A stretch of 64,000 nucleotides of DNA from Membranipora membranacea. Its lineage: Eukaryota > Bryozoa > Gymnolaemata > Cheilostomatida > Membraniporidae. The notes below the pieces were generated by a model. That model was not told the origin of the DNA and did not search any database. It worked only from the letters and a program-made list of their open reading frames with translations. Positions 298 to 53,404 of this stretch are shown one piece after another. The stretch lies in contig OU612066.1 in assembly GCA_914767715.1 (NCBI GenBank), forward strand, positions 10,483,001 to 10,547,000. The letters are read 5' to 3'. The translations under genes and the position numbers were made by a program. Every line of letters starts with the position of its first letter. The stretch's first letter is position 1.

Positions 298-624
298 CTT
301 GTTTTCAGAGAAGGATCAGGATAAAATACACAAACTTTAGTGAACTTGTTATAAGGCTGTGAATACGTGACCTGCTGTTAGATCAATACAATCACCAGCT
401 GATTGTACTACAACTCACAGACCAACTGCACTTTCTATGACCGGCTGTTTATTGGTTGTGATGAAACTCATGTTACAAATATCCAATCAGGGAGTGGAGG
501 TGTGTCCTAGCGAACCAATGAAATCACTCTAAAATACACACCCTTTTCACACCTTGTAGAAAACCAAGATACTGTCAGTAACAGACAACTGCCATCAAAA
601 ATGCTAATTTGGAAACTATTTAAT

Positions 625-641
625 CAGGGAGTTTGGGACCG
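625..641. repeat. Half copy of the micro-palindromic element
   Basis: The 17-base CAGGGAGTTTGGGACCG begins like the left arm of the palindrome at 30551. It lacks the right arm but is flanked on both sides by ATTTAAT (618-624 and 642-648). It looks like a truncated insertion that kept its 7-bp target-site duplication. Confidence 0.5.
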
Positions 642-1635
642 ATTTAATATCGGGAACAGGTTGAATGGGTTAAAGGTCCAAATTACTTATATATCTGGGT
701 TTCTTATTTGGTACCATAATGAACACTCTCATTTCTCGATTAGTGTCTAACCAAACGTAGCGACTGTCAGACTTGCTTGGCGAGCAAATGAACTGAGTAA
801 ACTGTTGTGGTTAGCTGAACGTTGACCCGGCAAGTCCACTATTTACACCTTGCACTTCAGACTTTGAGGGCCAATATCTACATGTTATCCTTAACTTTTC
901 AGTCTCTTTCAACATTCACAATCTTTTGTTTCTTACAGTACATGTCTCAAATTAAAAGATAGGAACGTCTCTCACCAACATTGGCATTAGAAAAATGACA
1001 AGAGAGAGAAAACACTTGGTCAGTCTCATTGGTTGGTTTCTTTATTTTAAGATCAAACTGAGCGCTGTCATACCCATTCCAAAAAATACCATGATGTATG
1101 AGTATAACTGGTATTGCCTCGTATACAGAGGGGTTAAAAGTCAACAAACAAAAATAGAGAGAAGAGAAACTATAGCACCGTAAGTAGGTATTAGCGCCGC
1201 AGCGCATGCAGTTTCTGCCTTAAATTACATGTATGAGGAAAATGTGAAAGTTGCTCCCCGCTATGAGTCACAGGTAACATATAGGAATAAGGATCAAATC
1301 ATTAAATTACTACACGATTCTACCTTCCTTTAGCTACCAGGTGGGCTTGAAGCCTTAACTTAGCAGCATCAAATGGAGAAAAAAATAAAAACCACATAGG
1401 CACTCACCAGATTACCATGATTGAAAACAATACCAGTCAGATAGGCATATAATTATGAAACAGTAATTACGGTGGTTTAATGAGCGTGGACAAGACAACC
1501 AATAAAGTTATGACATAAATTTTCAATAATCTCAAAGCTCTATCAAGATGGAAAGAACTAAATACAGATCATCATGTCATGGCTATAAGCAGCTCTTCTA
1601 TAATTCCAGGGACTATGATTAACTAATTTTCTATT

Positions 1636-1641
1636 TTTATT
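1636..1641 (-). promoter_or_regulatory. Candidate RNF123 poly(A) signal
   Basis: AATAAA on the minus strand, about 165 bases past the RNF123 stop codon. It is the nearest canonical hexamer I noticed; other TTTATT sites exist further down (about 1039), so use of this one is inferred. Confidence 0.35.
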
Positions 1642-1804
1642 TTACCCATACATGTTTGAAGCTAATAATACTACATGTATCTGACAGTAGAAAGCAAGCT
1701 GCTAAGAAGCGTGTTCATATTAGTCCTGTCGCATATTTTGAGAATCACATATACTGAGACAATGCTCCTTTGATAGAAGAGCCCAAATATAACATAGTGG
1801 TAGG

Positions 1805-13800: not shown

Positions 13801-16800
13801 TCCTTGAACTATGTGGTATCAAGCCTTATACCACATATTCTCCTACTCCAACCCACGCTACGCTTGTTTACAAGCGAGGGTATGTCATAACAACCAACAA
13901 GGGCTGCTAAAAGTTCAATAATGATGTAGGAAAATATATATAAAAGGTTTACCGCAATTTAAAATAATAAAGCCTACAATACTTACATAAAGGGAGTGGA
14001 TCCAAAGTTGAGACGAACAGATTCTCCCTGTGACAAGCTGACTGCAGGAAAGTAGGCAACTCCAGGTCCGAGGCATATGTTCTCAAATGCAGGCCCCATA
14101 CTCACTCCATTCCTATAAACCAATATAAATATTTTTTGTATAAACAGCGCTGCCATGAATATGATGCAGTGCATTGTGCGAGCCTCAAGGCTGCTAGCAT
14201 TTCTATACCATTTAGTAGATATACATGAGCAGATAGTGAACTTGTCAATTCAATACATGTACCAAAAATGGAGCCAAGTGAACTGTATTATAATCCTTTT
14301 TTTACAACTTATTTGCCATCAGTAAATTGAGGAAAGAAAAGCAGCTCACCTGTAGAATGTGACTATGCCATCATCACAATCCATAGCACAAGTGATAACA
14401 TCACCTGTCAGCCACGACTAAAACGTATTAAAAGCATGGTTATACATGGTGGTGGTATACATGGCATACATGGTGGTTATACAGCAAACAATTATATCAA
14501 GGGAGGTGGGCCATGGTCTAGTTTGCTATGCTGCTTAGCGAGCTAATGGTTTTCAGTTTTAAGACATGAAAATAAATGGGATGGAATCCTTGCATATAAC
14601 TTTCAGTCAGTTTTTTTATGAGATTCCGCAATCGGAAATATTTATGTATGAAACACATTGTGACTCTTTCAGTAAAAAGCACTACTCAATACGTTAAATA
14701 TGATGTAGACTGAGGAGAAGAGGCGGTGCACTGTCTGAACCCAGCATATTAAAAATCACATGATTATGACTTGACTGATACAAGCGAATACTTTCACAGT
14801 CACAAGACGCCAAGCATACATACCTCGCCATATTTTTCAGTTTTTACATTCCATTTCCTGACTCTGTTACCATCATAAGAAAATGAGGCTGGTGTGTCGC
14901 CCACACCCTCCTGCAAACAAAACAACCCACAAGTGTCACAAACTCTGAATATCAACCTCTCAGATTGATTGTTGCTGTTGGCCTCTATGTGCCCTTTGAG
15001 TAACTACAGTCTACACCAATAATACTTGTATACCGGCGCAAGCATTAACTCCTAGATGTGAGCCATGGTCAGTTAGGCAGATCCATAGTCTTAATAATAA
15101 TATAACTTATAGGTCTATGGGCAGATCATATGCTGAAGATTACTAAGCTAAGCATGGTGTCGGTAATTTCACTTCTCATCGGATCATTGGTTGTGTGTGA
15201 TTAAGTTGTCTCTAACTCCTTGGTGTGATCCGTCAATTTTCAGGTTTCATATGTTATCAAATCAGTGCAGATATATACCCAGTACTTTGAATCTGATCAA
15301 CTGTAGCTGATTCGGCTACAACTTCCTTACTGACATTTTAACTTTATTGTTTGAATTTTTTCATCCACAGTGTCCATGACATTATTATACAAAATGGAAC
15401 TCGAGTTATAAAGAAGAGAAAGTATTTTGTAACTTACGGAATGATTAAACTTGCAGCTCAGTGAACACCACCCTAGCTGCATAAGTCCTTTAGATCCCAA
15501 TAAAACTTCATACATCCATTTACCTGTTAGTACAGGATAAAGATAGAGAGTGTTTAAATATAATTTATCAAATCTTCGAAAACCACATGTAGTCCCAAAG
15601 TGCTGATATTTCCCATTTTTGTCAAAAATACACATTTCTGGATGTGAGTTGTTTTGGGCGGGTCCTATTGACAGACGCTACCTGTATATTCCAGACATAT
15701 GAAATATCATGGAGCTATGATTTGGTTATACTGTGTTACAAAAATCTGGCCATGAGCAAACACAGCACTGATAACCATTTATTATTGCAGCTCCTGGCCG
15801 GGAAAATGGTAACGCACTAGGACAAGCAAAACGTAATCTGGGGATATTTTTATCCCCATCTTTTTACTTATGATGTTGCGCTGCAATTGAATATTTCAAA
15901 TACATAGATTTGATACTTCAAGCAGCTGAGTGAAGCCTCATTAATGAAAGTTATACCTCTCATTACTATAATTATTATCTAAGATTGAGTAGGTTTAATA
16001 TCATTGCGTCTGCACAAACACCTTTGAGCTACATAAACATGACTTTTCAGTGAATACAGAAATAGAAATAGCAATGTGTATGAATAATACCTATTCAAAA
16101 TGTTATGACTGCTGGCTACATTCAAAATGTCTATAATATATCAACATGCCTACTCAGATTGATCTAATAATCCTACTGTACCGAACAGGTAGCCCAAGTC
16201 AGCCTAGGGCTCATATAGTACAACCAATGACTTATTCATAATCTATGGTACAACCATCATCGATTGGTTTTAAACACAGCAAAATGTACTGAATATGCAA
16301 ACTTACCTTTATAAACACAGGCGTTTGCTTTCACCGTCGAAAAATTGCCTTGTCCAGTAATCTGAAATATAATTGGGAGCAAATTATCATCTTGAACTTT
16401 TAAAGTGGTACATGCATGTTGATAACGCAAAGCATTTGAAAACATACTGGAAAGTGTGTAATTTCAGACTATCTCGACCATATCATTAACCCATCATAAT
16501 ATTACTATCTGTTTCATAACATAAGTACCAGCATGCTCAATTTCTTTTACTGACAACTCAATGGCTCATAGTTGAGCTTTAGAAAGTTTAGCTCTAAAAA
16601 TACACTATTCAATCAAGGTAGGCCTACTAATTATGAGCATATATGATTCTAAGCCTCAAGCACTATTACAATCCAGTGTAATATATAGCGATCAAATAGT
16701 ACCAGTCGCACCAGCAGGTTCTTCGTTTCCATTGCGAATGTCATAGCCAATTTCCATCATAAGTCGTCTAAATGGTGGTAACAGCTATGAATGTTAAATA

Positions 16801-19225
16801 TGCTGTACAAGTGCAATGCATCTAGACTCTGCTTTTTAAGAGGGCACTCTATTATTTCTCAATAGGCGTCCGTAATAGAAGTGAATTTTTGGAATAGTTT
16901 TGAATTAGACATACCCCGAGTCTATCGATCTCATACAGCACAGCGCCACTGACTTTCACTTCTTCTGGTCCGATGAGACCATCTCTTATCTGAGGTAAAC
17001 ACCCGGCACTTATCCTGTTCATCTCATCTCCGATAAACTGATCCAGAGAGTCCAGAGAACATGATTTACTATAACATAAAAAAAGGCATAACCGATCTAA
17101 ACCGCATGATTTCTGACTTACACAAATGTTTATAAAATATTTCTAGCTAGACTATTTTTATCGGCGATAATTATAGATTGATCTAACCTGTTCACACAAA
17201 TGAGCTCAGCATAGACTCTCTGTTTGACTTCAACTAAAGGACAGAAAATGTACAGCATAATACGAAAAGCGCAACTACATGAATAATAAGGATGCTTACC
17301 CTTTATGTGATCCAAATACTCTCTCCTGAACCGCTGACTCTTGGTGGATTAAGGCTGAAACAAGAAAAGAAAACAGTTCAAAGAAGCAAAAAAATATGTG
17401 AAGAAAATCGCCCTAATTACTATTTTTTGAGTCGGAGACAATAACATGAATTTTTCCGCACTATGCCAAAGAAATTAGGATAAATGATGGTGAAAAAAAG
17501 GAGAAAGCAGTTGAAATTAAGGGTATATATTGAGCATGAACTTTTTTTCAAATTCAACTATCTTGCTTTATATACATGTACAGAATCTCACATCATTGAT
17601 TAAAATATATGCACCATACATATAGGTCTAGGCCTTTGTGCATTGTCTGAAAAAAAACAGTCTTTACCCTATGAGTTTTGGTATTTCATACCGCTCAGCA
17701 CAGAACAAATAACTTCGAACAACAAGCATTCTCAAACATGATTTTCTTAAACTATGATCAATATCAGCACCAAGATATTTCACAGCTCCACAAAAAAACC
17801 AAGGCGAGTCAGTCCCAATTTTTGCTTTCTCACATTTTTTGTACACTCTGCTAAAGCCTAATATTTTTCAGGCAAAAGGTGGAAACAGAATTAAACATCC
17901 ATCAATCTAACATACTCAAGAAATACAATGAGAGCTGTATAATTTGTAGTTTTGAAGTAACAGTAAGAAGTCAAGAGTCATAGTATTGATACAACATTGG
18001 GTTAGGGCCTCTAAATACACATCTTCTGCAACACATATTACAATTTTATGGCATCTTTGTAGGGGGCGGTCACCCAATTGATATTGTTTGAGTTTGAATA
18101 CTGATGAAGGACGTTTTATATAAAACCTTATTCGGGTCTTAGATGCCCTAAAAAGTGACAGTCTGGTATGATCAACGAGTTAGAGTTGTCTCTAACTCGT
18201 TGGTATGATTCAGATGCAGTACATTATGTCTTGCACCAGAATATTATGTTTGCAAAAATTAAGCCTATTATTCATTGTAATAGATCTCTCAATAAAGGCT
18301 AACACTAGGTATGGTATTTGGCATATGGTATTATACATGCAAGAATGATTGACCAGTGACACATGTTCTTCAAACGCCTCAACTCATTTTCATACAACAT
18401 TAGAGCAAGATAGCCTACTTTTGGATTGTCACGGTCTCCATGGGCACGAACATGAACTTTGGTCGAACTGTATATGCGCAATAAAACATGAATGCGGCAA
18501 ACACCACTGGGGCCCCTATAATTCTGCTCAATTTGTACACACCTTACTTACTTACTACTTAGGGCCTACTTCCCAATTTATCCTATAATACCTATAGGTG
18601 ATCTAACAGAGAGTCCTGATGTATAAAGAGAGCTACCCCTCTCCAGAATTAATTTAGGTCTCCTCAATTAGCACACTCCTTAAGGCAATCTATCAGAGAC
18701 CTGACGTATAAAGAGGGTTAGGCCTACCCCACTCCAGAATTGACAGACTTAATTTAAATTTCGACAATCTATAGATTATTATTGGGAGTTTGGTACTTTT
18801 TGTGGTAGTTCTAGAGGGAGTTCATTGCTGTATGCTACTGAATGATTGGGTATGTGGCACAGCTTAGCACTACTCTACTTATCCTACTATCATTGTAATT
18901 TGTATTATGATTTATAGCAGTACCACCATAGTATCATAGTTAGTACTAATAGTAGGGGTATGTTTAGGATACAGGGGAAGTACATACATGTAATTGAAAC
19001 AAATACAATGCTGGTATCAATGAATATCATATTATCATACCAACAAAGGAGGAAAATTAACTAGCCAACACTGATTGATTTATATTTATCATCCAATTAT
19101 TATTTTATTATTAATTAATTTGAAATATATTAAATATACATACCATAGTCATCAACAAAGGTTTTTGAGGATCTTGAAGCACTAGATGGCAAACTAAATG
19201 CACTGTCTGATCCCCCACTAGCCAT
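1805..19225 (-). CDS. RNF123: RNF123/KPC1 RING-type E3 ubiquitin ligase, 28 coding exons
   Basis: Exons (high to low): 19225-19144, 17354-17300, 17068-16915, 16361-16307, 15523-15438, 14910-14824, 14417-14350, 14112-13987, 13368-13257, 12741-12664, 12322-12200, 11601-11435, 11126-10931, 10218-9993, 9620-9471, 9044-8863, 7959-7671, 7348-7274, 6970-6883, 6654-6567, 6251-6161, 5738-5599, 5046-4867, 4632-4557, 4161-3940, 3088-2997, 2333-2248, 1916-1805. All junctions are GT-AG and phases close in frame to 1161 aa (human protein about 1314 aa). An SPRY domain spans roughly residues 98-240 ([36 protein letters not shown]). Long helical middle exons match KPC1 ([26 protein letters not shown]). The C-terminal C3HC4 RING has C1104, C1107, C1119, H1121, C1124, C1127, C1138 and C1141. 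In mammals KPC1 with KPC2 ubiquitinates p27Kip1 in the cytoplasm and processes p105. The N-terminus and interdomain linkers are shorter than in human. The start is the first ATG of the 5' exon (MASGGSD, like vertebrate MAS...). Confidence 0.95.
11983..12077. repeat. Nested hairpin element in an RNF123 intron
   Basis: A perfect 19-bp inverted repeat (ACTATGCTGGGATAGCTGG at 11983-12001, its complement at 12059-12077) encloses a second hairpin made of TCAACCACTT and its complement. Weaker pairing extends outward to about 11967 and 12095. It lies in the intron between exons 11 and 12. It resembles a small foldback or MITE-like element; no clean target-site duplication is seen. A related end motif (AAGCACTCAAGCTAG) occurs at 10534-10553. 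Confidence 0.6.
13740..13787. repeat. Hairpin with 17-bp arms in an RNF123 intron
   Basis: CAGGTTGCTGGTAGTTG (13740-13756) pairs with 13771-13787 with one mismatch and a 14-base loop. The surrounding 13560-13920 sequence is unlike its neighbours and may be an inserted repeat. No matching 7-bp flanks were found, so it is kept apart from the CAAGGAG/CAGGGAG family. Confidence 0.5.
15202..15222. repeat. Truncated micro-palindromic element
   Basis: A 21-base segment ending CTAACTCCTTG matches the right two-thirds of the 30-bp elements at 18173 and 52908. It is bounded by perfect 7-bp repeats GTGTGAT (15195-15201 and 15223-15229). The left arm is lost. It lies in RNF123 intron 5. Confidence 0.65.
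18173..18202. repeat. Micro-palindromic element, 30 bp, perfect 7-bp flanks
   Basis: Left arm CAACGAGTTAGA pairs exactly with right arm TCTAACTCGTTG across a 6-base loop. Flanks are GTATGAT at 18166-18172 and again at 18203-18209. It lies in RNF123 intron 1. The length equals that of the copy at 52908. Confidence 0.75.
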
Positions 19226-19632: not shown

Positions 19633-22600
19633 ATGGCTGCAGCAATGCCCAAACGCCCTCCAAGAAGCCTGTCAAGAACGGCAACTGTTGATCATGATCA
19701 AGAACAGTCAACTCTACTGGACAGGCTCATGAGTATGGGATTTCCACAAAACAGATCGTAAGTTGAGTAATTTTCTTACGCACACTCTCTTTCTCAGGGT
19801 AACCATCACCCAACCAAGTCTGAAAAACAGTTTATCTGATAGTTTGGCTGTACAAATGGAATGTAAAGTTGTTGTAGGCTTTGTTGTTAATCATTATTGC
19901 ATAGTTATAGTACATACATGCATTTAAAATGAATGTTAGTTTATGTAAATCAGCGATGTTAAGTGTACAGTGTTGTGTAATTTTGCAGGGGTAATTAAGG
20001 TTATGACCACCGTCTTTTATTGTGTATTGTACACTTTGACCTGCATGAGACAAGAGGCCATACTGTTTTTTGCAGTCAATAGTGTTAACCTAATGAGTTA
20101 AAGGCACTGCGGTTGACGTGCACATTGTGTCTAACCTGCTGCTTGTTGGGTCAGTGTGGGATGCAATCAGTCCATTTGTGAAATATTTAATGATTAGATG
20201 GTCTGAACATTTTGAACAAAAACACTAGGCCTAACAGTCATGGTTTAGGAAAAAAAAAACTGACAGTGTACATTGACCGAGATTAAATTCTGTATATGAT
20301 CCCATGTACACCCAATTTTTTAAGCCAGGCAATCATATGTACCTAAACCGTGTCATTGTAGGCTTGTGTATAGTAAGTCCACATTAAATTTTCCCAGTTT
20401 TATCACACATAATGATACAGTACACTACTTCTGTGGTTCTTAGTGTATGATGAGGGTCAACTAATTAACTGACGACAGTTAATTACATCAGGGAGAATGG
20501 ACTTCCATTCTCCCTGATTACATCAACTCAATGTATGGAAACATAAACTTTATTTCAGTGAGAAGGCGATAGCTACTACTGGTAGTTTGAATGAGGGTAA
20601 CATAGGAGACTGTGTTAACTGGTGAGTTACTCAACTATCATACAATGGAGAACTGCAAGTTCTTACTATCTCAATTGTTTTCACTGTCTTCCTTACATTT
20701 TCAATGTTGCTGCTAAGATCTATTGGTTTGATTTACATGTTTGTGACATGTGACTTTGCAACAAAAAATGATCAATCTAAATAAGTGGTGCATTTGCTAG
20801 TACAAGCTGAAATGTTGCAAAAAATGATATATTTATGTATTTGAAATACAAAAAAAATTATTTTGACTGTTTTGTAGGTTATTAGCTCATGTGGATGATC
20901 CTAGCCTAGATGATGACAATACCAGAGAATACATCCTCTACATGTGCCCAGCCAGCGGACCTCTGTGTGAAAATCTCGAAAAGTTCTGGGCCGATACAGA
21001 ATTGTCCGCTCCCAATGGTGCTCACGAATCATTTCCCCACATACGACTCACAACATTTTTCAAAGTAAGGCCATAGCTTCAACAACTCAATAAGTAAACA
21101 AATTTCAGTAGCAGTATGTTGCACCATATATAACAACCAGTTGGCTGATGTCCAGAATTTCACTGTGATTCAGATGTCAGTTCTGTCTCAATTATCTGAT
21201 ACCAGCAAAAAATTAAGACCTAAAAGTGGGTCATTCATAATTATTCAACTTCCTGGCAATAGGAATAGAATTTGTTGCAATTTTCCCAATCATATTAAAT
21301 CAAACTGGTAAGATGTACATTTGATATGTCAAATCCTTTTGCTGATAATGATTTATTCGAAGTTGATAACAATATCGTGTGCCCAAATAATTTAGGCGGA
21401 AGTGAAAAGCTTTTTAATAGATGTATTATGTCCCGATTTAACCCCACTGTGATTGTGAAGTTCTCACGCTCTATATATAACTTCTTCATTTTGGGCAGTA
21501 AATGGCGGGTATGACGCATACTAGCTGCATATCTAACTTCTTTCTTTATGTGTGTTACTACTTTTATTCAACCCTGGTGTTTTAGCTCAGATGTAGTTCT
21601 GGCAATATATTTTGCCATTTGCGTGAAGCTAATTGCCTCATCAGCGAATGATATAGTTCTCGCAAGTTCATTGGTTGAGCCAAATATTTTTGCTGCCAGC
21701 TATAAGGAAGTTGCACTGTTTTTTATCTAAACAATCATGTATGCTGTATTTATTTAGGTGAAGGATGGTATGATGTCCAAACTGATACACACAATAGAAA
21801 CGACTTTACTCTCGTCAGAGTTTGTACAGTCTAACTATGATCTGGAGTATCAGTCATTAACGGATGCTGCCTATAAATATGTCGGACTGTTTTTGTCTGA
21901 CGAAGATGATGATAAACTACATGATCTTGCCGAAGAGTTTACCTCTAATGCTCTCAATATTGGTGAGGAATTTGTCCATATTCTTTATGCACTTATTTTA
22001 AAATTTGACTGAGTGGCAAGATATAGCGACCACCTTGCGTATGTTACCTTGTTAATATTTATAAATGATACTTGATTCCTTTTCGATGCTGTCATAATTG
22101 GCAAGTTGAAAATAGAGAAGACTAAAAGCTTAAAGTTAAACAGACTGTTTATTGTGCGACTCCTCCACCCCACCCCACCAGAATCTTAGAAAAATATTAC
22201 CAACTTTTTTCATCGTTCTTTCATTTTTTGCCTCATGAAAATTGTTATCAATCATAACCTGAAACAAGCCTATTGTGGCCAATTTTCTGTCATAAATTTC
22301 CTCATTTCGCAATCCGTTGCATAATGCGAATTAATGAATTAATTGTTCATTCATAGTTTTTGATCGATGATTTTCCTATTTGCTTCTCATATTAGGAGTG
22401 CTGATAGAGCCTTATACCCGACACATGCATATGTCCTTGGCGTACAGATTCTCAGATGAACACCAGACTAAAATAGAAGAGTTAGCCGGTAAAATTGACA
22501 CTCATGGCAAATGTCAGTGGGAGCTGAGGATATATTCTCGCGATATTAGAATCTCATCTCATGAGGTAAACAATATTTCCAAATTGTTTCATCACATATT

Positions 22601-25367
22601 TCTATCATCTCTGCATATATAGTGCCCTCTGGGAGTTTTTTGTCCCTAACTTCCTGGTGTGCTGAGAATACATACTAAAGTTATCCTCTCTTACATTTCT
22701 GAAATTTTTGTGTACAGGCCTTCATGATCTTGTCTGGTCATGACCAACAAAGAGAATACCAAATGGTTTATTTTTCTGTTTTGTAACTTCTTTGCTATCT
22801 CAATTAATATAATATATCAACTTCTTCATTGAAATAAATGACCCTCTGAACAATCTCTCTTTGTGTCCTGGTGACCAGAGGGCAAAATAGTTTCATTTAA
22901 ATTTGAATTGACTGCCAGTAATCTTCCTCAGTTTGAACTCTCATTGGTATACTTATCAGCATAAAACTATCATGCGCCTGAAAATTGTATTTAAAGCCAG
23001 GTTTTTGTGATCAAACTTTGGAGTTGCTGCTAATTGCATTTCACAATCAACTGTTACTGATGTTTTGTAGCATGTATCCTAAATAATGAGGATGTGTAAT
23101 TATCCTGTTTATATTATGCTGATATTCTCACGTGTCTTATCTTTTAGTTGAGGGAAGTAACACATGAATATCAGCAGCAGCAGGGTGATGAGGTTGGTCT
23201 GGATGTTGGTGACATCATCCTCACAGTACCCGACTCCATAACAGACAGTATAGACGGCTGGTTCTCAGGCTTTTCTCTCAAAAATGGCCTCATCGGAACT
23301 TTCCCTGGGAATTATACCAGTAAAACACCTTTAGAACATAAAACATGGACTTTGGTCAAGTGAGTCACAGCAAATAATCCTTTTAACTAGATTATGTAAT
23401 TGTCGCCTGGCCTGTCCAAATTCTTTGTTGTCCACGAAATGATACAAAACTTTTCATTAGCCTACTTGAGCTTATTACTGAAGCATTCCACCTCATATAA
23501 AATATAGTAATGTAATACCAATGTTACATTTGTTGGACTGTTTGGTTATGTTTTGAGCCAGTGTTAGAAGTACCTTTGCTGTTACAGGTCGTTACCGATG
23601 AGGTCTAAGTCACAGCTAGAGAAGGTCCAGGTCTGCCTGTATGAGAACGTACCAGAGAAGTGTGACGGTAGCTCGGACTGTGGAGACTCCAACTGTACTG
23701 TAAGTCAGATTCTATTCTGGTAGAACAATTTTTCATGGGAGCTTAGGTCTTGTGATATTCACGATTTATTCAGAGGCTACATTATGTGCAGGGATTCCTC
23801 ACCTCCTGGCTATAGCTGTTAATTTAATGGCATATGTTTCATCTTGTAATGTTGGTAAATTGATATTTTGACATATATTGACAATGATACTCTCTGCCTC
23901 TCTCACTATAGGTCAGATTGTGTTGTCAAATGTCATCAGAGCTCATGACAAGTGCAACATTTTGTGTGGGTTGTTCAATATGCAGCGTTATCTATTTAGT
24001 GTGCTGTCTAGTACCCCTATCGATGGCTAGTAATGATGATATGGTGTAAATTGTGGTGCAATAACCGCAAGAATAAGAATGCTTCATGCAATCGCAAATT
24101 GGTCTGTTTGTGACTCTCTATATCAGCAGCAGGTGACATGGTAGCATTATCATCATGAAGGGTTTGAAAAGTGTGTCAGCATTGGATATTTTGTGCGGAA
24201 ATAGTAGTTTTTAGATTATGCTCACTTTGTTTCAGTCTCATGAGGCACAGGAGCTCAGTTTGCTGTTTGTGCGGCACGCTGAGCGGGTAGATGCAGTGAT
24301 GGGCAAGGAATGGGTGAAAAACTGCTTTGAAGACTCTGGTGGAGGCAGTATGTGTATTTATCTCTCATTTGTGTTATTCATGGTGATTCAGATACATTAG
24401 GGTAATTTGCGCAATGGCATCAGCATCGCTGGCATGAAGTCTACTGTATGACCTACAATTTTGGAGTTATGGTACCTTATATTTAAGTGAGATAACTTCA
24501 CATTTTACAGTTGCCCAGATGCACTTTCTCGTAGTGTTGCTTATTTCAAAGTTAAGAATAAAACTCCTATTTGGTTATGATTAACCATTATCATCATTTA
24601 TTATTCCAGAAAAGTTCCTCAAGCGTTTCAACCTCAACATGCCAGATAGATATGTGAAGCGCAGATCAATAATGGATTTTGAGCGTGACCCACCTATAAC
24701 GGAAATCGGGCGTCTTCAAGCTAAACTTATTGGTGAGCCAGTTCATATTATCCAAATCATGCAATGAATTAGGATGAATCCACGGAATTAAATTTTTCTC
24801 ATGTAACGGAAACATTTAAATTTCATTATACAGTTAGGACACCCAACACAGGTACTGATCTGACATTGGTTTGATTGGCTGTCCCTAGTAGCATGAATAA
24901 ACATAGCCGGGGAAGCCGTCTTAATGACGAAACTGCAGTAATAAAATGCATTCAGCGTCGAAGATTTAGGTATTTTCAAAATGCTGCTAGGGACTGGTTT
25001 AGTTTTTTTACAAGCCTCGTGTTTGGCAAAAGCAAGCCAAATTATGCCATTGCAGGTATGGAGTTCAATGGTCACATCATACTAACCTAATATAATCATG
25101 AGTGCTATTGGTCAAACCTCAATGTTTTGCAAATTTGATGTTGATATGGTCACTTATGTTTACCAGGTAAAGCACTTGCCAGCTCACCTCTGAATATTAA
25201 AGCCGTCTATTCCTCTCCATCATTACGCTGTGTGGAAACTGCAGATATCATAGTCAAAAGTAAGTAGAGCCTCATTATACCCTAAGTAGTTGACTGTTCC
25301 TTGTAAGATGTTACATGATATGCTAATGTTACAACTGATTTCTGTTTATATATAAATAGACACTCTG

Positions 25368-25405
<38 letters not shown>

Positions 25406-28738: not shown

Positions 28739-29700
28739 TCAACTACATAATTGATCCAGCAAACAAGCAATGTGTGGTGAGTTAAAATCTTGGCTGGACT
28801 ATCGAAAGATTCTGCTCAGATAACCGTGAGTACATGAAGGCTACAATGTGTTCTAGATTCTCCTCTAGTCAGTGGTCCACGAATGGTTCAATCATCTTGT
28901 ATCTTAATATGTGACAGAGATTTTTTTTACCTATAGCTCTTAATTTTTCGTTCTCCAGTACTAGTCCACCCTCTCAATTACGTTTCGGTAACAGTTAGAT
29001 AATACTGAGTTGAGGCTTTTGGAGAACCACTAATGTTATAGCTTAATTATTTGATACAAAAAAAATTTCGATTTCATGCAAGACTGAAAACCTTCTATCA
29101 ACACAGCTTTTTAAACTTTTTTCACATTAACAAACGTAAAAAAAAAAGGAATTAACAATATTTAAAAAGAACCCTTTTCATCACCTTTTCAATCATATCT
29201 TACTACAGCGGTTCTGAAATACATTGGAACAATGGTATTGGAGAATGTTGTATTGGATACATATTAAAATATCCAGACTAATCTCAATCCTCGAAACATC
29301 CAGAACAGTGTCACCTATGACAGAAGTACCTTCACTCAAGCGTACGATTTGGAGATCACATTAGCGCAATCAGGTAAAGTGAAAAACACCCTCAAAATGT
29401 TTGTGGGTCCAAGTATATAGGTTGGTCCGTCAAGCGCGATGATCCTAGCAAGGATGCAGAAATCTAAATTTGGAAGACAATTCGCAAGTATGAGATCAGC
29501 TATTTGAGCAAGCCAGTTCAGCTTTCTCTTTACAGATTGATTATATTTATTCTTGTCTTGCAGCTCGAGTGTACAAAGCCTGGCAGTTTGGAAACACAAC
29601 AATGGGGATAAGTGACCCTTCTATATTTATGGTTCCTTCCTACTGTAGAACCAGGGAAAATGGAAGGGGCCGCTTCCATTCTCCCTGGTAGAACTAAGAA
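28739..29700 (+). pseudogene. Ependymin-related pseudogene (copy A)
   Basis: Relics of exons 2-4 of the neighbouring genes are recognisable: exon 2 about 28739-28825 (IIDPANKQCVV... RFCSDN), exon 3 about 29209-29373 (VLKYIGTMVLENVVLDTY), exon 4 from 29564 (WQFGNTTMGISDPSIF, then VPSYC). No exon 1 with a signal peptide is found upstream. Exon 2 is about 4 bases short at its start and has an in-frame TAA after CVVS. Exon 3 shifts frame after LDTY. Exon 4 is interrupted by a 36-bp palindrome at 29652-29687. Splice sites are largely kept. It is closest to the copy at 34853 in exon order and wording. A translated product is unlikely. Confidence 0.85.
29652..29687. repeat. Micro-palindromic element, 36 bp, inserted in pseudogene exon 4
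   Basis: CAGGGAAAATGGAAG pairs with CTTCCATTCTCCCTG (one mismatch) around GGGCCG. Flanks are GTAGAAC at 29645-29651 and 29688-29694. The paralogues at 33352 and 36509 read straight through this point (TACTGTTCAACTGAGGAGCC and TACTGTCCAACTCAGGAGCC), which defines the empty site. Confidence 0.85.
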
Positions 29701-31891
29701 GCCAGTGTCATCAAATCTGCACTCAACCAATCAAAGTTATTTCCCATCAACCTGATTGTGAGTAAACTTTGTTTTGTGAAACAGAATATATATAGTCTAA
29801 TCAACCTAGAAAGACTTATTCAAGCTTTTTTAACTCTGCAAAATTAGTACCAAGAAGTAAAAGAAGACCCCTTGCCTAAACATTACCAGTCAGATTTTGC
29901 ATTCTCATGGCTTGTATTCCTGGATGGCTTTTCCACAAATCCCTTGAGAGCAAAAGGCACCAGAACCTTAAAGTTTGAGGAACGACTACATGAAATCATG
30001 AATTACCATTCGGAAGGCATTTTCGGTCGTGACTCATTAGTCTCTCTAGAAAACAGTAAAGTCTTAGCTCCCTTATGTTTCTATTGACTTGGCTAGTGAT
30101 TGCAAGGCAGGTCTCTTCCCAGTGAGCCTGTCACGGAAGGGAGGCTAACCAAGTGATCTGTTCATTGATTTATCCAGTTATCATTTATCTCGCTAGTAGC
30201 AAAATAAAAAAAATTGCTTCATGTTCATATAATTATATACCAAATCATTGATTTTGTATACACTCCTGAGAGAAAATCTTTTCAAAGTTAACAAAAATGT
30301 GCCAAGAAGAAGCTCTCCGCTGCATTATATTTCACTTTATCGCCACTGAACATTAAATTGAATGTTTTATGGACCCACTAAAATGATAAGTCAATCTTGG
30401 CAAGGAGCACTATTACTCTTCGTTCTGGTAACTTATATTAAAAGCTAAAAGTCAAATATGTAAAAATGTACTGCCATAGCTCATGGATGTTGTAAGGCAT
30501 GATTACAGCAATGCTGCCCAAAAGTATGGCAATGTTTCCATAAATAGCGGCAGGGAGCTTGGGAATTGTCCCAAACTCCCTGATAGAGATGGAGAAGGTG
30601 CGGCATATGTTGTTAAAGTTGGTTTATTCTGCCCTCTTTATCAGTTGTGACAACTCTTGTAACATATTTTCAAATCATACTACTGATGTTACCAATTACT
30701 AAGTTGTATATAGAGGCCGAGGAGACCAAATCACACTCTGAGAAGACAAAACCCAAGAAGTAATTCTAATAACCACCACTGTCAAGGCAGAGAGCGGAAA
30801 ATCTGTTGAGACAAGAACGTTGAATGTTATGATAATAAATGGTGAAACTTCAACTGAGACAAACCTTTGGCGCGTTACTTTTAATCTTATTCATTTTACA
30901 GCCAAAAGATATGAAATCAGGCTAGGGCCAGTGGGCCACTTTTACAGCAAGTTAATTTCGAAAAAACCCAAACATTTTCATAGTTATAACATGAAAATGC
31001 AGTATGACAGCATTTATTGACGTCAATACCAATGTGTTTCCAAATCCAATTGAGAACGATCTCCCTCAACCAGTTGTTATTACAAGGTCGTCCCTGTGGC
31101 CATCTGCTAGATTGTCTTCTTAAACTCGGCTGAGATGTCTTAAAGATATCTCTATCCTCAAACTTTTTTGTGGAAGAGGTCCTTTATACCCCCTTCTTGA
31201 GTGAATGTGCTATACAGCACCCCTTCTGTACTACCCTTCCTGGCCTGCCACTGCACGGATAAAGCACGTTAAGAATCTTATTGAAATTTCCAAATTGTAT
31301 GGGCTGTTTACTAAAAACCTAAGGCTACAAACTGCGGCTTGCTGATTTTGTTGGAAATCAAACCGAATACTACTGCATTCTTCCTTGATTGATGTGGCCT
31401 TGTTAGTTTGATTGTGACCAGAGAACGACCATTAGGAATTTGGTGGCTTTTTTACCTTTATTATCAGATGACAAAAGATTTTGGGGTTTATATTATAAAA
31501 CTAACAAATCAAAAGTGTATATATATATACAAGACTAATTCAATGAACAAGTACCTGGCTAACTATGAATCCAGAACCATCTCACCTTGAAGAAATTCAT
31601 TTCCTCAAGTTCACTTTTTCGTAGGCAACAGAAAAGCAAGATTATTACCTGTTCCACAGTTCCTCATACCAATGTTAATTTATGGTTATTTAAATAATCT
31701 GAGAGATGTTGATTGATTGAGTGTGACAGTGTGGCTGTGAAAATAGCTTCAAACCGATGGTTCTCAATATTACGAAATAATATACATGTGAGCTCTTGGA
31801 GTTTCATCATCTTTGGTCATCGAGGAAATCAAGGCACCAGAATCACATGATGTTATGATGAGGAAGTCACTTCTTTGATGCAAATAGCGAA
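29701..31891. other. Spacer between pseudogene A and ependymin-related gene B
   Basis: No supported gene. It contains the palindrome at 30551 and the upstream block at 31657. Short ORFs (29872-30087, 30820-31020, 31408-31590) have no recognised domain or splice context. Confidence 0.5.
30551..30582. repeat. Micro-palindromic element, 32 bp
   Basis: CAGGGAGCTTGGGA pairs with TCCCAAACTCCCTG (one mismatch) around a 4-base loop. Flanks ATAGCGG and ATAGAGA match at 5 of 7 positions, as expected for an older duplication. Confidence 0.6.
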
Positions 31892-31899
31892 TATATAAA
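31892..31899 (+). promoter_or_regulatory. TATA box of ependymin-related gene B
   Basis: TATATAAA, 58 bases before the ATG codon, in a position consistent with a short 5' UTR. Confidence 0.55.
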
Positions 31900-31956
31900 C
31901 AAACACGCAAAGAGAGATTTTGCATTCTAAAGCAAGATAGCGCTGGAACTAGAAAC

Positions 31957-34352: not shown

Positions 34353-34365
34353 CAGTTCCTCATAC

Positions 34366-34391
34366 CAAGGAGTAACAGCGGTTACTCCTTG
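34366..34391. repeat. Micro-palindromic element, 26 bp, upstream of gene C
   Basis: CAAGGAGTAAC pairs with GTTACTCCTTG. Flanks are CTCATAC at 34359-34365 and 34392-34398. The same position upstream of gene B (31660s) reads CCTCATACCAATG without an insert, giving the empty site. Confidence 0.85.
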
Positions 34392-34852
34392 CTCATACCA
34401 ATCTTGATATATATGTTGAGAGATTTTTGAGAAAAGCACACATAAATCACCCAATAAAGATCAAAATTGTTTAGTTTGCCTGCTTTCGGAAGTGCAAGTG
34501 CCTCTGGTAATCAGTAGAGCCGGGTGTAGCGACACTGGGTCAAACTTGATCCAGATGACATTGATATTCATGAGACGAGGGACTGCCAGTTTGGCATTTT
34601 CAATGGCTTCTAAACAGTATAGTTTGTGATATTATGTGATTATATTAGTGTTGTACTGGAGTGGTTGCGGTTTGATTCCCTGAAGATTTATTACCTATCC
34701 ATTAATTCAACGAATCATCTCAGAGAACCAAAGTCACATGTTTGTATGAGGAACTGATGGATTTTACCGGTTTTTTCTTTTATTTGCAGCGTAAATTATA
34801 ACGACGCTCGTAAATTTGCATTCAAATGCGTCATAACACCCAAACCACAAAC

Positions 34853-38640: not shown

Positions 38641-38674
38641 AATCACAAGTACATACTACGAGTACTCCTTGGAC

Positions 38675-38773
38675 CAAGGAGTAACACTCCTTGCTTGGAC
38701 CAAGTACACTGAAACCAAGGAGTTACTCCTTGATGAAACCAAGGAGTTACTCCTTGCTGAAACCAAGGAGTTA
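38675..38773. repeat. Cluster of micro-palindromic elements
   Basis: CAAGGAGTAACACTCCTTG at 38675-38693 is flanked by CTTGGAC on both sides (38668-38674, 38694-38700). Two identical 17-mers CAAGGAGTTACTCCTTG lie at 38716-38732 and 38740-38756. They are separated and bounded by CTGAAAC, ATGAAAC and CTGAAAC. A third, truncated copy is at 38764-38773. The arrangement fits several insertions in one spot or local amplification of an element plus its flank. Confidence 0.8.
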
Positions 38774-38800
38774 TATATATGAGACCAATACTTGTATCAG

Positions 38801-40059: not shown

Positions 40060-40392
40060 TCAGTATAATAACTGTTTTGTTACATCTGGTTACTCTGTGT
40101 GTCTGATGGGAAGTAAAACTTGAAGTAAAACTCCGTGAGAGGATAACTCTATAACCTATTCTGCACACATTAATAGGCCAATCAGAGCCAACATATCAAA
40201 TGTCATTCTACAGAAATTTAGATTTTAGGGGTGACCCAGAAACGTCTCTTATTATAATAATACATCCCTGTCTAAATAGTCAGAAGACACGCCCAGTCAA
40301 TAAAAAGCAAGAGCAAGATTAGATTCCATTCATTGCTTTGCAAACATTTCTGCCTGATTTATCTCGTACACCACTACAGTATACTCTGCAAA

Positions 40393-43300
40393 ATGCCTGG
40401 CCTGAATCTTGGTGATACTTTTCCCAATTCTGAAGTTGAGACAACCAAGGGAACATTCAAGCTTCATGATTATATTGGTGACAGGTTAGTGAGAGAAATT
40501 GAATGAATGACTGAAGCACAACAACTGTCTACTTGAAGTTCATACAGGACCATGTCCATTATTGTACTGCATTTCCTAATTTTGGGTTTTGTTGCTACTG
40601 TGTGGGTTAGGATATACAGTAGCTATGAAGAAGGGAGTGCAGCTGTGAGAGTGGCCAGCCACCTATCTAACTAATATGACTAGTATGAATGAGTAATCTG
40701 CTCCAGACATGCATGTAATGTATGTATTGTATGTAATTGTATTGTCTCAGGAAGAGAAATATAAACCTTTATGTGGGTGATCTCTAAAATATTATCTAAA
40801 AGTAAGCTCAGTTTGATTGTAATGTAAAGATATATGGATATAAAAAGACATATGGAATAAAATTGTATATAAAAATTACACTTCAAATCTATTTACGAAA
40901 AACTGTGTTCAAATACCTGACGGAGTGGGCCCTAAAACAATAAGAGCTGAGTTCGTTGTTTTATTGCCTGATACCGGCCTGATGGAAGCGTTGTTAATGT
41001 TAGCACTGGATCAGAATGGTTGCCAGCAACCATTCTCAGGCCCTTGGTTTTCAGTTTATGTGCATATAGGTCTTGTGTATTAGTAAAAGATTGACCGCCT
41101 GCTAGGTATTCTGCAGTACTGATAAGATCTTTTAGTCTTTGATGAGAGTCTGATTTGAGATGTTTAAAGACTACCACTAGATTGTAGCTGATAACACTTT
41201 CTATAAAAGATCTGTTCCACGTTCGTATGATTTTCTCGTTTATGCCTAGATGGTAGAGCTTGACAAGTATGTGAGTTCTGCTACGAGGTTTCTTGATGGT
41301 CCTCTCGGTATTAAGTGTAAAGTCTAGTTTATTAGATAACACTGTGCCCAGATAGGTGAAGGAGTTCACAACTTCGATGTTAGTATTGTTGATGACTTGT
41401 GACGCCACTGGCAGAGGGTTTCCTCTTACATTGCTGAATACTAGCTCCTAGTGATTTTAGTAGTCAAGATAGTGAGGGAGTTGCTGGTGCTGTAGAATAT
41501 GGGTACAACACATAAGCAATGTTTGCATGTTATTTATACATCACAGAAAAACACTGCCTAGGGACAGGGAGTTTTTTGGCCAATATTTTCCCCTGGTAGG
41601 GAAAAACTGACCCTCTCTCATCATTATTTGTACAATTTTGAAGCTTGATTGAAAAGTCTGTGCAACCTCCCATGCCAGGGTTTGGCCTAAGGCCAGAAGT
41701 AGGATCCCACTTCAAAATACCACACATAGATGTAATAGAACTGATCTTGCATGATGTGCATACAAATATACACATACGTATATGATGAATTGAAAGCCCA
41801 ACCTATGTTTCTCCGTCTACTTTCAGCTGGGTCTTGTTCTTCTCACATCCTGCAGACTACACACCAGTATGCACCACCGAGCTAGGCGCCCTCATCAACA
41901 TGATGCCAGAATTTGAGAAGAGAAATGCCAAGGTTATCACCATCTCCTGTGACGATGTGGACTCTCATCATGGTTGGTCAAAGGTGGGTCACAATAATTA
42001 AATAATTTAATCTTCCGCTACTAGAATAAAAAATCACAAATGCAGTTGTAGCGAATTTTATAAGTCGCCATATTGATTCCCATGCTTGGACTTTATCATT
42101 GAAAGCTGATGATCATACTGCTAATAATGCCTATAATAAGAACATGCTGTCACAAGTTGTTGAGTAGCAACAGTGAGGCGTTGAATTTTCCATTCGCAGA
42201 ATTTTGTTGGATGCAAGCTAAAAAGCAAAAACTTAGTACCTTGGCACTTGGCAGTCAGCAACAGTTCTACACTAAATAACACCACAGATATATATCCATG
42301 AGTATATGCACTACAATTGTCTGATGTAATCAAGTCCCAAAGCCGTGATAAATTTTATCTTCCATGTCACATATAAGTTGCAATCTGAGGCTAGTCGCAT
42401 TCCTGTGGTGATGTGTAACAAAAAATTATGTAATTCATCTCCTCCCCTGTCATTCATCTTAGCTACTGAAAGCTTTGATTTGATGTTACTTTTGTAAAGA
42501 GCTAGACTATTGGGTCACTTACATAATATAGTAGACATATGTATGATGGCCATTGATCACCTCCCATTATACGAGTATTAAAGTATTACCAAAAAGTTAC
42601 ATAATAGTTCTGTGCTATTTTTATTATGTTTGACCTAGTCTCTGGCTGGGTTTGCAGTTTCATAACTGGAATTTAAATGAGTTGCATCCTATTCCCATGT
42701 CAAAATAGCAGGTTTTAGTTCTCTACCGGTCAATTTTGGCACTGCTTTTTAGCTATTAGACCATCAGGCAGAAATTATGTCAGCCCACAGCTTATAATCA
42801 TGATCTGTATATGAAAGCCGACCTAACCTCAGGCTTTCGAAACCAGTGTATAGCTGCTTATTTAGTTTTGATAATGAGACCTATTAAGGTCAATATATAG
42901 AGGCTTTGTAAATGCTATCTGCAGCATGGCGGCTTATCATTGAGAGAAATTTCTTATCATATGTTGTACTACTGCCCAATTATCTATATTGGAAATTTGA
43001 ATGGAACCCGTGGGAATGTTAAATTTCATATAAATTTTGGCGCCGTTTCAATGGTAGGAATATGTCCCCACATTCCGTACATACACGTGTCACTGCCGCC
43101 CGGCATTCATATCATCCAGTAGGAGCCTCTTATCTAACAGCGTTATTAATAAATAGTATCTGAATGTCCTTCAGCCTCTGAATTTGAATATTTCCCGTCG
43201 CTGCCGGTTTCGACTTCAGCATCAATATGCACAATCAGACTTGTATATGCGGAAGAACAGTTAGGCAGTTTGCACATGCATGATATAACTAACTTTAAAG

Positions 43301-50640: not shown

Positions 50641-50656
50641 AGATCAACGTCTGGGC

Positions 50657-50664
50657 TATAAAAG
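50657..50664 (+). promoter_or_regulatory. TATA box of ependymin-related gene D
   Basis: TATAAAAG in the context GGGCTATAAAAGGAGC, 87 bases before the ATG. This predicts transcription start near 50688. Confidence 0.75.
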
Positions 50665-50743
50665 GAGCAGCAAGCCGGTTGCCACGCCATTGTTAGTTCT
50701 GCAAGTTTCTGTTCTTGACCTATTGTCCACTCTAGCTGGTAAA

Positions 50744-52257
50744 ATGTTTGTAAAAGCTGCGTTGGCTCTTGCAGCACTGGTTGTCGTGAGTTCTGCACCT
50801 ACTACAAGCGATGTGAAGTGTGTCCCGATGCAGTGGACAGGCGTGGCTGTGGGAAAGTTTGGTTTGTCAGGAGACAAGAAGAGGCCACCACTTGGCTTAC
50901 ACATGATTGCTGACGTCTATGCCGACTACGCAAAGAAGATGGAGGCTATGCACCAATCTATCTTTGAGGGAGAAAAACACATTGGCAACTTCACCTTCAT
51001 CAGGGATGCAGCAAAGGTTAGTGATGACTCAACTAATGGAACAATTTTGAAGCCACATGTAATTGTCCAATAATACCTATTTTTTTATAAGATGAACAAT
51101 TCTGTGTTGTTGATTCATTATCCAATTATTGGTGTTGGTTTCCGGCACTTTCTGAAAAAAAATTAATTTCTGGATAGTTTAAATGCAACTATTATTTTTG
51201 TATAATTTAAAAAAATTAAAAGAAGATGACTAAGTATATCTAAATCTATGAAGAAATTGAGAAAAAGAGCGCAAAGACACAAATTATGCGGTGTTAGGTT
51301 TTGATCCCATATTACTATGCTATTATGATGACATTCTAGATATGAACAGATTGTTTGATGATGATTATGAAAATATTTTTGGTTTTAGATGGAGAACTTT
51401 ATGATCGACCCAGTAAAGAAAAGTTGTCAGATTACAAAGGACCCGATGAACCCTGTTGAGCAGATCTGTACCAACAGCAGTGAGTTCAAAAAAATTATCA
51501 TTACCCAAAAAGGGCTAAATAGAACTTTGCCTCAAATCAAGTTGAAATTTGTCTTAGTCTTCACATTTAATTATTAGCCCCTAATGGCTGGTCGCAGATT
51601 GGAAACCTGAGCCCATACATTGGAATGTGCTTGCTTCAAAGAAATCATATGTTGTGATTTGTGAACTCGAAACAAGCTTGATATTGCGCAACGAATCTAG
51701 GTCTGTCCGCTAAGAATTTTGTCGTCGTCAAGTCATCATGAACTGCTATTGATGTTAATATCTATTTTAGTTGATATCACATGATTTCTCACACTTTTAG
51801 CTGGTGTCAAACTAGTCCATAGCCTAAATGTTGGAGACAAAGTTCTGGACATGTACTATAGACATTTCAGAGACGGAGATGATTTGTTCACTATGATGCG
51901 TGATCCCTTCACTATCGTCAATATGGTCTCATCTCTGAAATTCAGAGATATGTGTAAGTGTTCGTTAGAATTTACAAATTATTATTTCACTTAATTCAAC
52001 CTGATTCAAAGACAGCAAATTTATCCATTACAGCAAAAAATTGGAGTACAGTCAAACAATGTTCACAAACACTGATTCCTCGATTGCAGAATTACTGCTT
52101 ATAAATCTCAAATGGCACATAAATTTCTAGCGCTTTCAATTTATCTGCTTTTATGTTTTTCTTGTTAGCTGAGTTGGTGGCTCTGAATTACGGCAACATC
52201 ACTCAGGGTGTGGCAGATGAATCAGTCTTTGCTCTTCCTGACTACTGCAAGAAATAA
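50744..52257 (+). CDS. Ependymin-related secreted protein (divergent copy D), 4 exons
   Basis: Exons 50744-51016, 51389-51479, 51801-51953, 52169-52257 give 201 aa. The exon phases (0-1-1) equal those of copies B and C, showing common descent. The start at 50744 opens a signal peptide (MFVKAALALAALVVVSSA); an upstream in-frame ATG at 50690 falls at the predicted transcription start and would bury it. Four cysteines are conserved: VKCVPMQW, KSCQIT, QICTNS and PDYC. The C-terminal motif NYGNITQGVADESVFALPDYC corresponds to NTTMGISDPSVFEIPPYC in B, with less strict residues. A strong TATA box suggests regulated or high expression. AATAAA at 52403-52408 is the likely poly(A) signal. Detailed function unknown. 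Confidence 0.88.
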
Positions 52258-53404
52258 ATGTGGATCAGATATAACAGCCAATCAACCGACCATAGACTGC
52301 AGAAAAACGACATACAAGTGATTGATTAAAAGAGTTTTTGCCTTCTTTTAAAACTATTCTGGATAGCATGCTTTTCGTTTGCTGAAAGAGTTAATTATTT
52401 GAAATAAATGCGAATTCAAAATAACCAAACTTCTTATGGATAATGTTGTTAGGCTGGGAAACTGAGTTAGGTACAAAAATATTTCAAAGCTCTACTAACC
52501 TATTCAAAATTTACAAATACAAATTAATAAATATTATTGAATTTCGGATTTTCAAACAGAAATTTCAAAATATATCAATACCCTTTTTTAGATCAAATGG
52601 TATCTGAATGTAACATTGTTGTATCAATTTTGTGTGCCTTACGTATTAAGTCAATTGGCAGTTGCAGGTGGGACCATTCTCGCTCTAAGAGCAACATTTT
52701 ATTATTGTATTGGATTCAATTACCTATAAAAAAAAATTGGGTGGAGTACAAATTTATTCATGTAGCTTGAGTACCATCAGGAATGAGGTGTGGTGACCTG
52801 ATGTACATTTCTTGAGTTTGGGGCAATCTCACATGAGGTACTCGTACTCAATTTAGTCTAACGGTTAGGGATACAATGCTAACATGTACCCTCAATATCA
52901 GTATGAGCAAGGTTAGTTAGTTGTCTCTAACTCCTTGGTCTGAGTTAAACCCATTTGGTAGAGCTATGAAAAGACAATAGAGCAAATCAGTTCACTTTAA
53001 TTACCAGAAGAGTTGCCAAAGAAAAGATTTAAAACTTTTCATAACCATATGAATTTTTTTCAAATACCTGCTCAATACAGTTTTCAATCAAGAACCAGAA
53101 TTTAAAAAAAATCATATCAATCAACTTCAATCATTTATGGTAATTGAAGGGTGATACAAGCAGAATGTCACAAAATTTTGTTGATGGAAAGTAGAATGAG
53201 AACTACTGTTTGTGCGTAAGAGAGAGTTTTCATCATACCATCAGTTATTCTGCCATACATTTTAGATCGCTTTCAATAATAATTAAACTAGCAAACTCTA
53301 AACTGCTGAACAGGTTTATGTAAGATATTATCTTCTCTTGTATAGAGAGAAGACAACTATGCAAACATCAATCATCAATGAATTTTTACGGACATAATAC
53401 TTAA
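52258..53404. other. 3' flank of gene D and spacer
   Basis: Nothing coding is recognised. It contains the poly(A) signal of gene D and the palindrome at 52908. Confidence 0.5.
52908..52937. repeat. Micro-palindromic element, 30 bp
   Basis: It begins CAAGGTTAG and ends CTAACTCCTTG, with an inner TTGTCTC shared with 18173 and 15202. Flanks are GTATGAG (52901-52907) and GTCTGAG (52938-52944), identical at 6 of 7 bases. Confidence 0.7.

Follow-up and report, generated by a model that had tools for sequence, protein, structure and literature searches.

Short palindromic inserts with 7-bp flanking duplications in the bryozoan Membranipora membranacea as probable excision footprints of P-superfamily transposons

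Short inserts in a 64-kb window

The window analysed here is a 64-kb stretch of the Membranipora membranacea genome (339,339,785 bases, 18 contigs) at positions 10483001-10547000 of contig C2; other contigs are named in the same way and fetched loci are given as L0xx. It contains 14 short inserts of 15-36 bp, bordered on both sides by similar 7-mers, and two of these (22629-22656 and 38764-38778) were new or newly resolved. The original prediction held them to be mobile elements reduced to bare terminal inverted repeats (TIRs). We conclude with high confidence that they are instead excision footprints of P-superfamily DNA transposons. The sites, in window coordinates, are as follows.

618..648, no strand assigned: putative one-ended footprint; ATTTAAT + 17-nt end CAGGGAGTTTGGGACCG (625-641) + ATTTAAT; 7/7
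15195..15229, no strand assigned: putative family A footprint; GTGTGAT + TAAG + 17-mer TTGTCTCTAACTCCTTG (insert 15202-15222) + GTGTGAT; 7/7
18166..18209, no strand assigned: putative family A footprint; GTATGAT + 30 bp (18173-18202; 13 + 17 nt) + GTATGAT; 7/7
20482..20523, no strand assigned: putative family B footprint; ATTACAT + 28 bp (20489-20516; 13 + 15 nt derived from the B end) + ATTACAT; 7/7
22622..22663, no strand assigned: putative older footprint; GTGCCCT + insert 22629-22656 (right 17 nt TTGTCCCTAACTTCCTG) + GTGTGCT; 5/7
29645..29694, no strand assigned: putative family B footprint; GTAGAAC + 36 bp (29652-29687; 18 nt from the B end on each side, with one mismatch per side) + GTAGAAC; 7/7
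30544..30589, no strand assigned: putative family C footprint; ATAGCGG + 32 bp (30551-30582; right 17 nt TTGTCCCAAACTCCCTG) + ATAGAGA; 5/7
34359..34398, no strand assigned: putative family D footprint; CTCATAC + 26 bp (34366-34391; 15 + 11 nt) + CTCATAC; 7/7
38668..38700, no strand assigned: putative family D footprint; CTTGGAC + 19 bp (38675-38693) + CTTGGAC; 7/7
38709..38785, no strand assigned: three putative tandem footprints at one target, 24-bp period; inserts 38716-38732 and 38740-38756 (17 bp each) and 38764-38778 (15 bp)
41558..41602, no strand assigned: probable footprint whose two ends differ; CTAGGGA + 31 bp (41565-41595) + GTAGGGA; 6/7
52901..52944, no strand assigned: putative family A footprint; GTATGAG + insert 52908-52937 (CAAGG + filler-like TTAGTTAG + 17-mer) + GTCTGAG; 6/7

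The flanking 7-mers were exact at the seven inserts starting at 625, 15202, 18173, 20489, 29652, 34366 and 38675, matched at 6/7 at 38716, 38740, 41565 and 52908, and at 5/7 at 30551, 22629 and 38764. Every predicted insert and 7-mer was present in its place. The predicted end motif, CA(A/G)GGAG...CTCC(C/T)TG, is not universal: 29652 starts CAGGGAA, 52908 starts CAAGGTT and 41565 ends TTTTCCCCTG. The supposed relic at 625 has exact 7-mers (the left one at 618-624) and is one-ended rather than a palindrome, and that at 38764 is the third insert of the tandem. Within the tandem, the separating 7-mers CTGAAAC/ATGAAAC/CTGAAAC/ATGAGAC match at 6/7, 6/7 and 5/7. Repeated insertion at this target followed each time by departure, or duplication of a scarred site by slippage, may have produced the tandem; both fit.

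Fifteen end pairs were identified in the window, defined as both ends with at most one mismatch, 14-45 bp apart. In eight of them, namely seven inserts and a compound pair (38716-38756) that spans two inserts, the flanking 7-mers agreed in at least six of seven positions, compared with a mean of 0.016 and a maximum of one such pair in 500 dinucleotide-preserving shuffles. The duplication length is specific to 7 bp: exact flanking repeats were found at six of the 15 pairs for k = 7, the compound pair included, and at none for k = 4, 5, 6, 8, 9 or 10. The signal is weaker when no end motif is required. A motif-free scan of the window gave nine palindromic inserts with exact 7-mers, five being CA...TG, and ten shuffles gave 0-4; two uninspected CA...TG inserts with exact 8-mers were also counted. 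The same scan of 200 kb of C1, run with no shuffle control, gave 15 palindromic inserts with exact 7-mers, six of them CA...TG. Chance palindromes were rejected on the shuffle controls, with and without the end motif.

Three tandem gene copies, which we take to be ependymin-like by resemblance (Pfam gave no match for the one open reading frame, ORF, tested), lie at 29000-37000 of the window; a 40-bp unit is repeated in tandem approximately seven times (35960-36244) in the third. Insert 29652 is located inside a coding exon of the first copy. With its 36 bp and one 7-mer removed, the site aligned gap-free across the junction with both sister exons, at 84% over 121 bp (36407) and 75% over 95 bp (33273). 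These alignments stop 10 bases beyond the 7-mer, and the multiple alignment remains similar slightly further. As the net gain at 29652 is 43 bp, the reading frame is shifted. Insert 34366 was absent from two matching regions, one with a 33-bp match spanning the junction at 31651 and the other with a 19-bp exact match at 37133 that runs up to and through the 7-mer. Judged from these alignments, the empty sites indicate insertion in both cases, the matches being shorter for 34366 than for 29652. The candidate empty-site match for 30551 in the window gave no clean alignment, and no convincing paralogue spanning the site was found within the window for the remaining inserts.

Elsewhere in the window, a pair of inverted similar segments (54958-60450) contains two receptor ORFs that are similar and oppositely oriented (55112-55582 on the minus strand, by eye; 59865-60641 on the plus strand, PF00001). 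Pieces of reverse transcriptase resembling that of long interspersed elements, judged by eye from translations, are present on the minus strand at 57059-58700, with no Pfam match in the two pieces tested. The Pfam search gave no match for eight of ten window ORFs.

Genome-wide abundance and end families

In the genome-wide scan suggested with the original prediction, the core pattern matched at 7115 places per strand, compared with 44 for the pattern read backwards, and the 7-mers were tested on fetched samples. The window, with six exact-pattern inserts against a genome mean of approximately 1.3 per 64 kb, is richer than average. Among the loci fetched first, six distinct copies fit the strict pattern; five had exact 7-mers at the minimal match, and the sixth (L013) had an exact 7-mer pair around a longer, 38-bp insert. 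A further 17-nt search with one end retrieved 42 distinct sites, at which the 7-mers were exact in 18 cases, matched at 6/7 in 11 and fell lower in 13. Random anchors under the same search gave an exact repeat in 502 of 20,000 and a match of 6/7 or better in 561 of 3000; because the latter is frequent, only exact 7-mers count among the one-end-fetched sites. In a 200-kb stretch of C1, eight sites with 7-mers at 6/7 or better were accepted from 12 rows (16626, with two rows and a 7-mer that does not abut, 62478 and 134444 were left out); two are one-ended (CAGGGAGAATG), and these may include chance matches.

Insert lengths were taken from 98 distinct places listed, the first 98 of the 7115, under a pattern that permitted up to 39 bp. 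They ranged from 15 to 39 bp, and 93 of the 98 were at most 34 bp. The subfamilies have the first seven bases in common and diverge after them. The family A 17-mer (CAAGGAGTTAGAGACAA) was found at 161 places genome-wide, the family E 17-mer at 461 and the family B 15-mer at 295, each compared with none for the controls. The B-type end CAGGGAGAAT begins 33 of 184 ends among the 98 listed inserts (inserts of at least 17 bp, both ends counted).

Members of a family agree at their outer ends and differ in centre and length, and one end is often kept to approximately 17-19 nt with the other trimmed. The two retained ends meet at a microhomology or filler. The A 17-mer is followed by CT in 16 of 18 fetched places (L036-L053, from 20 regions minus the longer L034 and L035). 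After CT comes mostly the partner end, retained to 7, 11 or 13 nt, with the readable joins after the partner's AG, as if a 3' end ...CT had paired with AG. The continuation CTCTAGCC of the A end is present only in L035, once per strand, and at L034, 80 bp of rearranged A end fragments lie between exact 7-mers. The commonest B product among the 98 listed inserts, the 18-mer CAGGGAGAATTCTCCCTG (9/98), is a join at AT, the sole self-complementary dinucleotide of the B end; CAAGGAGTACTCCTTG (5/98) and CAAGGAGTTAACTCCTTG (4/98) are the TA and TTAA equivalents. The inserts at C1:959625 and C1:2002185, whose flanks were not read, are exact reverse complements with unlike ends, 15 + 17 nt by our split. 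In the 51-bp B site at L095, the filler repeats the site's left flank in reverse complement.

Several further observations were made on these families. A-family 17-mers occur on one strand every 22-73 kb at C6:16.44-16.62 Mb and 18.82-18.98 Mb, as if footprint-bearing segments had been duplicated. L035 (C4:7652030-7652260) carries a 107-bp piece with two A ends within a larger palindrome; its flanks are inverted copies, so the 7-mers are inverted and not direct. CAAT...ATTG inserts with exact 7-mers (L015:5135-5155, L015:6560-6577, L027:3306-3323 and L008:837-859) apparently form another footprint family. Seven matches of the A 17-mer in viral contigs, with no 7-mer or palindrome context, were rejected as chance.

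These junctions bear on whether the palindromes are ultra-short non-autonomous elements, inserted as bare TIRs and mobilised in trans by a transposase. The sequences are indeed bare TIRs, the exact 7-bp duplications and empty sites show insertions, and identical palindromes of 16-18 bp recur at many loci, one 18-mer accounting for 9 of the 98 listed. Movement in trans in that form was not supported: length changes within a family fall at the centre, some inserts are one-ended or have two different ends, the filler in L095 is derived from its flank, larger elements with the same ends exist, and the recurring 18-mer is explained as an AT join of the B tail. DNA of 16 bp is, moreover, hardly long enough for paired transposase binding. 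We consider this explanation very unlikely.

Parent elements and P-type transposases

Longer relatives with the same ends were found, as the original prediction had anticipated, although no transposase gene was found between the ends of any of them. The search of the window itself gave no intact parent with CARGGAG ends (one search required 10 identical end bases). Genome-wide, plus/minus pairs of the B 15-mer cluster at approximately 785 bp. One B parent, read whole (L092), is 786 bp long with 7-mers CCGACAC/CCTACAC (6/7); its TIR (CAGGGAGAATGGAAGGGGGAKGAGCYTGCACT) of approximately 32 bp matches at 30 of 32 positions and starts CA (CAGGGAGAATGG...). The terminal inverted repeat of the Drosophila P element is 31 bp. 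A second copy, whose ends were read, is 785 bp long with the exact 7-mer GTGTAAC, and at least 18 plus/minus B pairs lie 749-787 bp apart on coordinates only. From its length of 786 bp, the B element would be non-autonomous. Insert 29652 consists of the first 18 nt of the B TIR twice, with one mismatch per side, and at C3:34633422 (L096), 18 + 16 nt of the B TIR (split by eye) lie between exact CTTTCAT. B-type scars outnumber the at least 18 near-intact B copies.

Intermediate sizes were also present, with B plus/minus pairs at 43, 51, 82, 91 and 114 bp (from coordinates; the 51-bp one was read). Together with the 80-bp A site of end fragments in L034, they could suggest that the inserts are end-joined remnants of interrupted gap repair, in which copying from the sister was aborted, leaving extreme internal deletions; PMC2895639 describes incomplete repair synthesis before end joining. 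Against this, inserts no longer than 34 bp make up 93 of the 98 listed under a pattern permitting 39, and such repair is a variant of the same pathway and no competitor for most sites. As a general explanation it is very improbable.

A second end family, CACAGAGTAAGGATAT, was identified in the same 200 kb of C1, with intact copies of 526 bp (L028:8500-9025; 7-mer 6/7) and 696 bp (L033:5505-6200; 7/7) and a 30-bp footprint with exact 7-mers at L016:6325-6354. A copy of this end adjoins a P transposase gene, a weak link: CACAGAGTAAGGATATA next to a P transposase in L091 was set aside as suggestive only; the second copy is without it and the 25-mer occurs at only two places. Another candidate element, at C1:1166785-1166946, is 162 bp long, with CAATGAACTAA at its ends and GTCTTAC as an exact 7-mer.

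P-type transposases, a class with THAP/HTH, RNase H and a GTP-binding insertion, are abundant in the genome. A profile search gave 134 matches to PF21787 (P transposase RNase H domain) and none in 14 control genomes, a comparison of little weight if those genomes lack P elements. The five main P transposase ORFs scanned all contained PF21787, PF21788 and PF12017, two of them also THAP, and a sixth, C-terminal ORF contained PF21789. Two apparent ends were rejected: CAAGGAGCAACAG beside the L059 transposase, because the same flank is present in three copies and the sequence is therefore internal, and CAAGGAGTAAAAG at L058/L087, where the homology of both copies continues past it.

The target motif is NTNNNAN: of 66 sequences (33 distinct exact sites, both strands pooled), 59 have T in the second position and 59 have A in the sixth. 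Three features of the P superfamily are thus present: a 7-bp target-site duplication (in the footprints and in the 785/786-bp parents; 7-8 bp in the superfamily), a CA-starting TIR (in the B parent) and, compared by eye with the literature, a palindromic target preference of the P/Galileo kind. The CA(A/G)GG ends and the T-second, A-next-to-last target motif also resemble those of hAT-type transposons, and the original prediction had drawn a comparison with hAT ends. The duplications of hAT elements are 8 bp, and their excision forms hairpins on the flanks and is not known to leave terminal sequence. Here the duplications are 7 bp, exact 8-mers were found at none of the 15 window pairs and terminal sequence is retained; it is P transposases that are abundant in the genome, hAT transposases not having been searched for. 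Footprints or minimal copies of hAT-type elements have a next to negligible probability.

Probable excision footprints and known systems

A cut-and-paste DNA transposase making 7-base staggered target cuts, as originally proposed, best explains the sites. The variable centres, unequal or single ends, flank-copied filler and recurring tail joins argue for end joining after excision. In the proposed mechanism, an element would integrate at an NTNNNAN target and create the 7-bp duplication. A P-type transposase would then excise it with a long stagger, the second strand being cut approximately 17-18 nt inside each end, so that each side of the donor break would be left with a long single-stranded 3' tail corresponding to the outermost TIR sequence. 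Being alike and in opposite orientation, the tails could be trimmed, paired at AT, TA, TTAA or GT:AC, or filled, and then sealed. The product would be a 7-mer, an end, an inverted end and a 7-mer, that is, a palindrome of approximately 15-36 bp with a variable centre.

Footprints of P-type elements are a known kind of structure. P-type cleavage leaves 17-nt 3' extensions (PMC7776569, PMC10983969), and excision junctions formed by end joining in flies lacking Rad51 are tabulated for the Drosophila P element (PMC2895639, Table 1). With two 'none' rows left out, 44 of 63 tabulated junctions keep sequence of both ends and both target copies. The inserts are 7-44 in length, most commonly 30 (14 isolates), followed by 32 and 35 (five each), and joins near the tail tips, with the preference found here as well, include 14 at AT and five at TA (PMC2895639). 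That account also describes templated inserts, and incomplete repair synthesis followed by end joining, at P excisions.

Several points weigh against this interpretation. The 7-mers fell below 6/7 at 13 of the 42 one-end-fetched sites. Long-microhomology joins that retain almost no end make up 18 of the 63 Drosophila junctions (PMC2895639), and such scars would be invisible in this genome. No transposase gene was found between CARGGAG ends in five P-transposase regions of 5.2-5.5 kb, some of them extended, and four of 3.4 kb; these regions had no such termini, or CARGGAG matches judged to be internal or chance. This absence says little either way, since the fetched stretches probably stopped short of most element ends. 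The superfamily assignment itself rests on signatures of mechanism.

The length of the retained tail also departs from an exact 17 nt. Agreement extends to 19 nt among A ends (CT in 16/18) and to 18 nt among B ends, and E ends have A at position 18 in 17 of 22, which the partner end may partly explain. L095 agrees with the B end over 20 and 19 nt, which we read as flank-templated filler. The B prefix was found at 295 places at 15 nt, 125 at 18 and 59 at 24, with no visible edge; 66 B ends (125 - 59) thus retain 18 nt or more but are not intact as far as 24. An exact 17-nt limit, weakened by the agreement of the A and E ends to 18-19 nt, was replaced by about 18. On these alignments, the tail would be 18 nt in B, at least 18 in E and perhaps 19 in A.

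Finally, scars far exceed the intact elements found, an imbalance that would require either frequent end joining or numerous bursts of activity. The excess could instead reflect ongoing excision, for instance by a host-tamed P-type transposase clearing out elements wholesale in a programmed or somatic manner, the assembly being largely the post-excision state; we consider this extremely unlikely. The excess is the part for specialists to follow.

If the sites are P-type excision footprints, one animal genome preserves thousands of positioned records of transposon departure, each with its target and repair outcome. Through microhomologies and filler, they would provide a readable measure of the repair of long 3'-overhang breaks in a non-model animal over evolutionary time, and former element positions and hopping could be reconstructed. 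They would also gauge what repeat annotation misses when 15-36 bp remain. Engineered breaks are the usual means to such ends. As a caution, very short palindromic repeats between short duplications are not necessarily elements.

In the openly licensed literature searched, no account treating P-type footprints as a repeat family spread across a genome was found, and neither the natural scale nor the CARGGAG families were met. The 786-bp B element resembles a non-autonomous element with TIRs, of the miniature inverted-repeat transposable element (MITE) type. The 15-36 bp inserts, on the best reading, are not independent elements: a MITE family shares one internal sequence and length, whereas here centre and length vary. 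Zebrafish Pdre2 / THAP9 is alike in being P-type, with CA-starting terminal repeats and imprecise joins after excision, and differs in its 13-bp TIR and 8-bp duplications (PMC10983969). Galileo, of the P superfamily, has 7-bp duplications with the palindromic preference GTANTAC (PMC4168063; also PMC2775673 and PMC3573991), which the NTNNNAN motif of this genome resembles; the available parts of these accounts describe it as elements, with two-TIR and solo-TIR copies bearing long TIRs, and not as palindromic footprints. The closest likeness is to the footprints of the Drosophila P element (PMC2895639), which have the same order of target copy, end of up to 17 nt, inverted end and target copy, with AT/TA joins and templated filler. 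Those are single laboratory events in Rad51-deficient flies, with 8-bp target copies and CATGATG ends, whereas the sites in this genome have 7-bp copies, CARGGAG ends and about 18 nt kept, at thousands of natural locations.

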